Part shown: one piece after another, positions 42-32,201 of the stretch | How positions within the stretch are numbered: the stretch's first letter is position 1 | Layout of the letters: each line of letters begins with the position of its first letter | Source: Syntrophus aciditrophicus | Lineage (GTDB): Bacteria; Desulfobacterota; Syntrophia; Syntrophales; UBA5619 | DNA: 33,738 bases | Direction: 5' to 3' | NCBI GenBank assembly: GCA_020722315.1 | Contig: DYLD01000012.1 | Coordinates: forward strand, 1 to 33,738 | The notes under the pieces: model-generated | What the model saw: the letters and a program-made list of their open reading frames with translations, nothing else | Told to the model about the DNA's origin: nothing | The model's database searches: none | Made by a program: the position numbers and the translations under genes

Positions 42-52
42 TTTTCCTCCTT

Positions 53-242
53 GAGACCTTTGAAAAATGCTGCCTGAAGCGCGATTTCAAAGATTTTTCG
101 GGGTACCCCGCCGTCGCAGCAAGACTCTAAAGGCGTTAAAAACGCGAACAATAGAGAGCGGTTAGCCTGTAGAGTCGCTGCGAGAAGCCGCGGGGTCGAA
201 AAAGATTTATGAGTGCGAAAGGCGGCGTTTTGCAAAGTTCTC
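53..242 (+). repeat. Interspersed palindromic element, copy 1 (~190 bp, imperfect terminal inverted repeats)
   Basis: GAGACCTTTGAAAAATGCTGCCT at the left end and GGCGGCGTTTTGCAAAGTTCTC at the right end. Internal blocks GGTACC, GGCGTTAAAAACGCGAAC and CGCGGGGTCGAAAAAGAT are shared with copies 2 and 3. Flanked by TCCTT at 48-52 and 243-247. Confidence 0.9.
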
Positions 243-348
243 TCCTTGAGTCAAATTATCCGACACGTTTTTGCATATATCTAATTTCCTTGTCTTTTGT
301 CCAGATATTTTTCAAGAAGAGGGGCCGAAATCTTTTTTTATGCTTTAT

Positions 349-2263: not shown

Positions 2264-2456
2264 GAGACCTTTGAAACATGCTGCCTGAAGCGCTATTGAT
2301 TTTTCTTAGGTACCCTACCGTCTTGAGCAAGGCTCTACAGGCGTTAAGAACGCGAACTATCCCAGAGCGTTTAGCCTTCTAGAGCCATGTCCAGAGACGC
2401 CGCGGGGTCGAAAAAGATTTGATCAGCATAAAAAGGCGGCGTTTTTTAAAAGGTCT
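2264..2456 (+). repeat. Interspersed palindromic element, copy 2
   Basis: GAGACCTTTGAAACATGCTGCCTGAAGCGC ... GGCGTTAAGAACGCGAACTAT ... GCCGCGGGGTCGAAAAAGATTTGATCAGC ... AAGGCGGCGTTTTTTAAAAGGTCTT; aligns to copies 1 and 3 over its full length. Confidence 0.9.
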
Positions 2457-2491
2457 TTGATTGTGACTCGTTGTAGGCAGGATGGTTTTCG

Positions 2492-5918: not shown

Positions 5919-5951
5919 AGACCTTTGAGACCTTTGCAAACCGCCGCCCTC
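5919..5951 (-). repeat. Truncated end of the interspersed element (solo terminal repeat)
   Basis: GAGACCTTTGCAAACCGCCGCCCT (5927-5950) matches the right-end terminal repeat (GAGACCTTTGCAAAACGCCGCCTT) at 22 of 24 positions. AGACCTTTG is tandemly duplicated at 5919-5927 and 5928-5936. Confidence 0.65.
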
Positions 5952-5987
5952 GAAGTGCAAAGGCAAAATGTGTTCATTCCGAATTTA

Positions 5988-15924: not shown

Positions 15925-16074
15925 GAACGTCAACGACGAGCAGAAAAAGGTGATTCTTACCCTGTCGGCCTCTTTTTGGATACTGCAAGACCCGGTTTAT
16001 TTTAGTTTCATGAAGCGCGATTTGAAGGTTTTTCGTTCATCGTGTTGTTTATTTGACGAATCTTTGCAAAATCA

Positions 16075-16103
16075 TTGACGGCGGGTTGACAGACCTGTAT
16101 AAG
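16075..16103 (+). promoter_or_regulatory. Candidate sigma-70-type promoter for rpoH
   Basis: TTGACG (16075-16080) - 17 nt - TATAAG (16098-16103). Confidence 0.6.
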
Positions 16104-26873: not shown

Positions 26874-27092
26874 CTTAAAGGTGTCAGGTCCTTCAGGTTC
26901 GTCCTTTACATACACAATGGGGGATGGTAAAGTTATAATGAGGGAATGTTCCAAACGGTTTCATTCGCGCGGAGGAAGCTTTTCAAAAAACCTTCCAATC
27001 GCCCTTCATGAAACCGATTTACGGATTTTTTCCGAGCTCTCGTAATAAAGATGGTCTGTTGTTCTTGAGAATCCGGTGCTGAATATGACTTT

Positions 27093-31126: not shown

Positions 31127-31317
31127 GAGACCCTGGAAAAATGCTGCCTGAAGCGCAAATTTATTGATTTTTCGAGGTACCCCGCCGTCAAAGCCAAGGC
31201 TTTAAAGGCGTTAAAAACGCGAACTATAGAGAGCGTTTAGCCTTTGAAGCCGCCGCGAGACGTCGCGGGGTCGAAAAAGATCCGATCAGCGCGAAGGCGG
31301 CGTTGTGCAAAGGTCTC
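31127..31317 (+). repeat. Interspersed palindromic element, copy 3
   Basis: GAGACCCTGGAAAAATGCTGCCTGAAGCGC ... GGCGTTAAAAACGCGAACTATAGAGAGCG ... CGCGGGGTCGAAAAAGATCCGATCAGC ... AAGGCGGCGTTGTGCAAAGGTCTC. Confidence 0.9.
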
Positions 31318-31349
31318 TCTGTCATTATCGGAGGAAAAGGGGGAAATCT

Positions 31350-32201
31350 TTGCGTGTAGTCATCCTTACAGGACTGTCCGGTTCAGGCAAGAGCACCGCG
31401 CTCAGGGCGCTCGAGGATATCGGTTTTTTCTGCGTCGACAACCTGCCGGTGGTGCTCCTTCCGGAGTTTCTGTCCATCCAGTCCGCCCCGGATAAGGGGA
31501 TATCACAGGTTGCGCTGGTGATGGATCTGAGGGAACGTGAGTTCCTTGAAAATTGCCCGGAAATATTCATCCGGCTCAGAGAAGAGGGCTACAGTATAGA
31601 GATCCTTTTTTTGGATGCCTCGGATGAGGTCATTGTTCATAGGTTCAGCGAGACGAGAAGAAAGCACCCTCTGGCCCTTGAAGGCTCGATTCTTGACGGC
31701 ATCCGTCTTGAAAGGGAGAAGTTGATGCCGCTTAAAAGGATGGCGAATGAAATCATAGACACAACCGACTGCAATGTCCACCAGCTCAAGGATATCATCC
31801 AGCGGCGATTCCTTTCTCCTTCGCAGAAGAGCCTTATTGTTCAGGTGAGTTCCTTCGGCTACCGTTACGGCATTCCGATCGACGCGGACATGGTTCTCGA
31901 TGTCCGCTTCCTTCCGAACCCCTTTTTTGTCGATGAACTTCGCCCTTTCGACGGCCGTGATGAGAGGGTCAGCGACTATGTCCTGAAATCGGAAACGGGA
32001 CGGGACTTTGCCGTCAAGCTAGCTGACTTTATGGACTTTCTGATGCCGCTATATGAAAAGGAAGGAAAGGCGCGTTTCAAGATTGCCGTGGGCTGTACGG
32101 CTGGTTTTCACCGTTCCGTCGTTATCGCGAATCTTCTGGGGATCTACTTCTCCCAGAAGGGGTATTTTTTCAATGTCACCCATCGCGATATAAACAGGTA
32201 G
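31350..32201 (+). CDS. rapZ: RNase adapter protein RapZ (P-loop NTPase)
   Basis: [40 protein letters not shown]-terminal [19 protein letters not shown]. Preferred start TTG 31350 after GGAGGAAAAGGGGG; the ORF-track start at 31305 lies inside the repeat. Confidence 0.94.

Follow-up and report, generated by a model that had tools for sequence, protein, structure and literature searches.

A new family of miniature inverted-repeat transposable elements in Syntrophus aciditrophicus with a core that appears to be conserved as a strand-specific fold

The interior of a bacterial miniature inverted-repeat transposable element (MITE) is usually regarded as an unimportant leftover. ERIC, NEMIS/Correia, YPAL and RUP are bacterial MITEs, the transcripts of which fold into long hairpins (Delihas 2007, PMC2229807), and bcr1 is a further comparable MITE (PMC2267715, PMC3733652). 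REP elements are 20-40 bp in length, carry GTAG or CGTC tags and have RAYT transposases (PMC3733652). Here we describe an element of about 190 bp, copies of which lie in a 33,738-nucleotide stretch of Syntrophus aciditrophicus DNA (contig DYLD01000012.1 of assembly GCA_020722315.1; hereafter, the window). By its anatomy, the element is a MITE of a new family. Aligned copies indicate that compensatory changes preserve the fold of its core from lineage to lineage, with a bias towards one strand.

The host assembly is 3.02 Mb in 422 contigs and is 98% complete. When this assembly was searched with BLASTN, at least 40 full-length copies and one fragment were obtained, so the element is not restricted to the three copies that a first-pass annotation of the window had reported. 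This annotation had also proposed that a covariance model be built. The model matched 148 of the 150 scored host candidates, giving at least 148 copies, and the core was also found in relatives. These host copy numbers are lower bounds; many contigs terminate within a copy. The 15-base terminal repeat (two or fewer mismatches) has 432 matches in the assembly, as compared with 24 for the reversed control. At about 190 bp each, at least 148 copies in 3.02 Mb occupy about 1% of the host genome or more. The terminal repeats are GAGACCTTTGaAAAA / GAGACCTTTGcAAAA, with GAGACCTTTG ends, and the two ends of a host element are often slightly unlike each other. Both ends and both flanks were read for 47 distinct copies. 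Of these, 23 lie between exact 5-bp direct repeats, and in 13 others the repeats differ at one position; other registers gave 0 or 1. Examples of the duplications are GAAGC, ATATC, TTATC, GTTAA and TCCTT (copy 1 of the window). Nested or abutting insertions also occur. Thus, the element is short and non-coding, with terminal inverted repeats, a target duplication of fixed length and a high, dispersed copy number. The terminal repeats, the 5-bp duplications, the at least 148 copies and a matching IS5-family insertion sequence in relatives (see below) are together the basis for its classification as a MITE.

We found no recurrent neighbour gene beside the host copies and, with crude calls of open reading frames, no clear bias of gene orientation: the copies are oriented as both neighbours in 32 cases and opposite to both in 28, and lie between convergent genes in 14 and divergent genes in 13. 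Large clusters of neighbour proteins appear to be the element itself in translation, not a shared gene. An alignment of 43 host copies (A4) gives the impression that the copies are pieced together from a small set of discrete modules, combined in many ways, for example GGGG/TTAGG, AAAGCCAAGG/GCAGCAAGG and ATAGAG/ATCCCAG. This mosaic appearance, seen by eye, suggests that copies have exchanged sequence by recombination or conversion. Shortened derivatives of 33-78 bp, in which both terminal repeats remain but the central hairpin is gone, were observed in the host (L224, 317-394) and in two relatives (L214, 377-441, in G031; L248, 3033-3065, in G186). In another relative (G221), a second small element has GAGAnCTTTG ends like those of the MITE and an unrelated interior with a CGTCATTCCGGCGGA... 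palindrome (L241, 216-347; L243, 3141-3253); it is apparently served by a transposase common to the MITE. A near-perfect copy of the host type is present at 2242-2441 (L175) of DYLQ01000078.1. This contig comes from a sulfidic cave and was assigned to Thermotoga sp. on deposition; it is probably mis-binned and derived from a relative of the host.

A DNA search of relatives gave only weak matches, in one part of the element. The copies in relatives have a homologous core of about 150 nt and outer arms that are very unlike, yet still complementary. A core model was built from 24 copies. With this model, the core was found in 66 of 120 relatives, representing 32 of 52 genera, and several genomes have at least 20 copies; at the threshold used, it was undetected in the remaining 54 relatives, a patchy distribution. 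Across the phylum, 15 of 297 genomes have the core, including several families of other orders. For example, the copies of f59, which belongs to another order, have GAGAGCTTTG or GAGACCTTTG ends and 5-bp duplications such as ATTCT, AATTC and ACGGT. Thus, the core, the ends and the duplication length recur jointly outside the order. In one relative (G016, L135-L142), core copies have very different outer ends (approximately GGTGACTCATTTTGTGTC) with no clear 5-bp duplication, and here the core may be joined to other transposon ends. In two others (G023 and G042, L104-L123), the core is embedded in a larger repeat of about 400-500 bp, which also contains an additional upstream domain and has AGCGGATTTCAAATCCGCT as outer palindromes. 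The two genomes carry this unit in opposite orientations at one orthologous site (L108 versus L120). We found no DNA match to the element in plasmids, and no exact match in viral contigs to one conserved 26-mer, a search that tests that string only.

The predicted fold of the core is one long interrupted hairpin. Copy 3 of the window folds with -85.5 kcal/mol, as compared with -56.4 +/- 4.4 kcal/mol for shuffled sequences (z -6.6). Its reverse complement folds worse (-71.4 kcal/mol). The GCGTTAARAACGC block, which had been described as a mini-hairpin, does not form one in the predicted fold; instead, AAACGC pairs with GCGTTT downstream. A structure alignment of 63 copies from 29 relatives gave a 55-pair structure, which is derived from those same sequences. 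In this structure, 90.4% of the cells are paired, as compared with 78.2% in shuffled controls and at most 50.1% in slid controls. Changes on both sides were observed in 40 of the 55 pairs (shuffled, 26.7 +/- 2.1), a number reached in 0 of 500 shuffles. The covariation score, which is not tree-corrected, was 0.380 (shuffled, 0.165; slid, at most 0.132). For example, GCAAAGGCAA/TTGCCTTTGC is swapped for GCCGGGAAAA/TTTTCCCGGC. RNAalifold alone gave compensatory changes in 33 of 41 pairs.

The strands are not equivalent. The + strand folds better in 60 of the 63 copies, and G-U exceeds A-C by 168 to 76 (pairs recovered from both strands), a ratio that cannot tell RNA from single-stranded DNA. Between lineages, the numbers are 203 and 78, and in the inner core they are 111 and 31. 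Unpaired loop bases are also conserved in the alignment of relatives. The covariation and the excess of G-U over A-C together indicate that one strand folds. Both covariation beyond the controls and strand asymmetry, the features looked for in a structured RNA, were thus observed, and the core may act as RNA. Within the host, G-U and A-C are unbiased (69 and 73), compensation was seen in only 21 of the 256 deviating cells, and pairs changed on both sides are not in excess (6 versus 5.1 shuffled). Some compensated modules are common to several host copies (22 cells versus 7.3).

The first-pass annotation had reasoned that any mobility must be in trans, and had proposed a search for a transposase with matching terminal repeats. 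Such an insertion sequence was found in relatives by way of a DDE_Tnp_1 search of eight related genomes. When the terminal-repeat pattern was the only query, G031, G311, G186 and G221 yielded mainly MITEs and mini-derivatives, and the insertion sequence was not recovered. The insertion sequence is about 1.4-1.5 kb and encodes an IS5-family transposase with DUF772 and DDE_Tnp_1 domains, which scores 183.2 and 176.8 bits against NCBIfam NF033581 (transpos_IS5_4; cut-off, 140). This transposase was found in 24 of 149 relatives, among them members of the host's family. At 23 insertion-sequence loci, GAGAnCTTTGnA occurs upstream of the gene in 21, downstream in 16 and on both sides in 14, as compared with 0 and 1 for a control pattern. 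Exact 5-bp duplications surround at least seven loci (GAAGT, CCATC, ATAGT, TCTCC, CTGAT, GCGGG and AAGGG); a TTTTT duplication at L291 is probably a chance match and was discarded. As in the host element, the ends are often slightly unequal (TTTGCAcAAC and TTTGAA...). In G010, one insertion-sequence end shares a stretch of 19 identical bases with the variant end GAGACCTTTGAAAAACGGT, which is present in 6 of 43 host copies. In the same genome (L290, about 2716-2753), this 19-bp terminal repeat is tandemly duplicated at one insertion-sequence end.

The core model had no match in 32 insertion-sequence loci. Therefore, simple internal deletion of this insertion sequence does not account for the element, and the derivation of the interior from a parent by such deletion, which is common but not obligatory for MITEs, was not observed. 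An autonomous element with matching ends and duplication is present in relatives and not in the host assembly. Because the ends and the 5-bp duplications of the IS5-family insertion sequence in relatives match, movement in trans is the best reading, and the host element is most likely mobilised by this or a related transposase. We infer this movement, as the search of the host assembly did not yield the transposase gene. Thus, the proposal of mobility in trans has gained a concrete transposase with matching ends, although the gene was not found in this assembly.

We consider it likely that the element is a parasitic MITE moved by an IS5-family transposase, and that its folded core aids its own spread or tolerance. 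The transposase would recognise the element ends and insert the element in either orientation at intergenic sites, which it would cut with a 5-bp stagger. The mover may be the transposase described above, or a close relative that is now lost from the host or missing in the assembly. The folded core, as a transcript or as + strand single-stranded DNA, would make the source element spread more readily or be better tolerated. For example, a folded single strand might be presented during transposition, read-through transcripts might be folded or protected so that insertions cost little, or a host factor might be titrated. Copies would decay once inserted, and the source lineages would retain the fold. 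The decay of host copies with little compensation suggests that selection operates on the replicating source lineages, and not on each copy or on a host use. Across the aligned genomes of 29 relatives the interior persists, with compensatory changes and a bias towards one strand; individual copies decay, and the matching insertion sequence lacks the interior. This pattern is as expected if the fold benefits the element itself.

Several observations weigh against this explanation. The IS5-family transposase was not found in the host assembly at E 1e-40, and none of the seven host DDE_Tnp_1 loci has the terminal repeat. The core-free derivatives of 33-78 bp and the second element with matching ends suggest that transposition can proceed without the core. 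The association of core and ends is not universal, because G016 has other ends and G023 and G042 have the longer form. Furthermore, the aligned sequences are related, and the covariation and the copy counts are not independent events. More tentatively, the core could be a selfish structured nucleic acid (RNA or strand-specific single-stranded DNA) that contributes to the propagation of the element, and a module compatible with different transposon ends (mostly GAGACCTTTG-like; others in G016; the longer form in G023 and G042). We regard this as possible and not as probable; if it is true, DNA transposition would have a non-coding partner of a new kind.

Other explanations of the core were considered. 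The covarying strand-specific structure, the conserved loop bases and the presence in many families would also be expected of a functional noncoding RNA that is used by the host, as a small RNA or an mRNA-processing element, and is merely spread by mobile ends. Indeed, the related hairpin MITEs ERIC and NEMIS affect adjacent mRNAs (PMC2229807). However, the host copies decay with little compensation and without G-U bias, they have neither a recurrent neighbour gene nor a clear orientation bias, and the core is absent from 54 of 120 relatives at the threshold used. Near-neutral decay, the lack of context bias and the patchy distribution make a host RNA gene less likely, and we judge this explanation to be unlikely. 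If the core were passive filler, its apparent covariation would have to come from arm-to-arm correction of the palindrome or from copies recombining with one another, and no folded strand would be under selection. Arm correction predicts perfect pairs and no strand bias, whereas G-U exceeds A-C between lineages (203:78; inner core, 111:31), the decaying host copies are unbiased (69:73), and the loop bases are conserved although they are unpaired. Self-correction of palindromes is possible, the mosaic-like host copies make recombination between copies plausible, and the outer arm, which varies most, has more compensated cells than any other part; nevertheless, we judge it unlikely that the core is filler.

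A strand-specific hairpin could also belong to an element of REP/RAYT or IS200/IS605 type, moved as single-stranded DNA by a tyrosine transposase, and the host has two Y1_Tnp genes. However, both Y1_Tnp loci lack the repeat and the core, half of the copies have 5-bp target duplications, and the ends are already explained by the IS5-family match. Tyrosine (HUH) transposition is not known to leave 5-bp target duplications. Movement of this type is therefore very improbable.

The copies in the window are listed in Table 1. The first-pass annotation had reported three copies that align end to end in one orientation; all are on the + strand, and copy 2 ends at 2457 rather than 2456. The terminal inverted repeats, the GGTACC block, GCGTTAARAACGC and CGCGGGGTCGAAAAAGAT that it had noted were all found in the copies. 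Copies 1 and 2 are 84% and 79% identical to copy 3 by BLAST. The target duplication is perfect around copy 1 and lost in copies 2 and 3. Downstream of rpoN, copy 3 separates hpf from rapZ, the likely TTG start of which follows 32 bases later. As had been noted, it contains no credible reading frame: the start of rapZ is the only long frame that overlaps it. Within the rpoN-hpf-rapZ cluster (window 31127-31350), copy 3 has the transcribed direction and is directly 5' of the rapZ ribosome-binding site. Its insertion could alter rapZ expression.

Table 1 Copies and fragments of the element in the window.
Feature	Position	Strand	Remarks
Copy 3	31127..31317	+	Full length; target duplication lost; model R1, E 2.8e-41
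Copy 1	53..242	+	Full length; model E 2.6e-40
Left target-site duplication of copy 1, TCCTT	48..52	.	Sequence read
Right target-site duplication of copy 1, TCCTT	243..247	.	Sequence read
Copy 2	2264..2457	+	Full length, right terminal repeat decayed (AAAAGGTCTT); model E 1.2e-30
Relic of a divergent copy, decayed and internally deleted	26952..27041	-	E 7.8e-8; degenerate GAGAGCTCGGAAAAA end at 27041
Weak relic from a divergent copy, of which the 5' half (TTTCATGAAGCGCGATTTGAAGGTTTTTCG) remains	15999..16099	+	E 6.7e-4
Lone 3'-end fragment GAGACCTTTGCAAACCGCCGCC without core (solitary terminal repeat)	5927..5952	-	Sequence match

The first-pass annotation had suggested that the element belongs to an undescribed MITE or structured-RNA family, and both halves of this suggestion are supported, by the MITE anatomy and by a covarying, strand-specific interior without a match in Rfam. 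When the window and the copy of a relative were compared with Rfam, as it had proposed, none of the 4227 families matched at gathering and E-value thresholds. It had named two outcomes that would count against its suggestion, only three copies genome-wide with no structural conservation, or a match to a named family; instead, the copy number is large, the structure is conserved and no named family matched. We found no description of the element in the open-access literature searched, most subscription journals being outside its scope. Therefore, we propose a new MITE family that would be unusual for its conserved strand-specific structured core, to which we ascribe a putative role. The element raises a testable question: does a folded RNA or DNA strand aid the spread of a gene-free element?

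REP elements, with which a comparison had also been proposed, are likewise intergenic palindromes repeated in many copies. Assignment to REP/RAYT was rejected: the present element is about 190 bp with GAGACCTTTG ends and 5-bp target duplications, in contrast to palindromes of 20-40 bp with GTAG/CGTC, no RAYT is nearby, and neither of the two Y1_Tnp genes is near the element. The omega RNA of IS200/IS605 and IscB/TnpB, and the bridge RNA of IS110, are transposon-associated structured RNAs that lie beside their protein gene. They resemble the core as conserved folded RNA-like modules in mobile elements; in contrast, the module described here moves without a gene and has no known partner protein. 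IS5-family insertion sequences (NF033581) have ends of the same kind, GAGAnCTTTGCAnAAC / GAGAnCTTTGAA, and the same 5-bp duplication; these encode a transposase and lack the core, whereas the element is gene-free and has it. The closest resemblance in overall form is to ERIC, NEMIS/Correia, YPAL, RUP and bcr1, which are also shorter than about 200 bp, with terminal inverted repeats, target duplications (in most), little or no coding capacity, high copy number, intergenic location and a long stable hairpin. However, the sequence of the element is unrelated to theirs, and it has 5-bp duplications and GAGACCTTTG ends in place of the TA-ended repeats of most of them. Moreover, covariation maintains its core in many families within the order and also outside it, and it can be matched by its ends to an identified insertion sequence.
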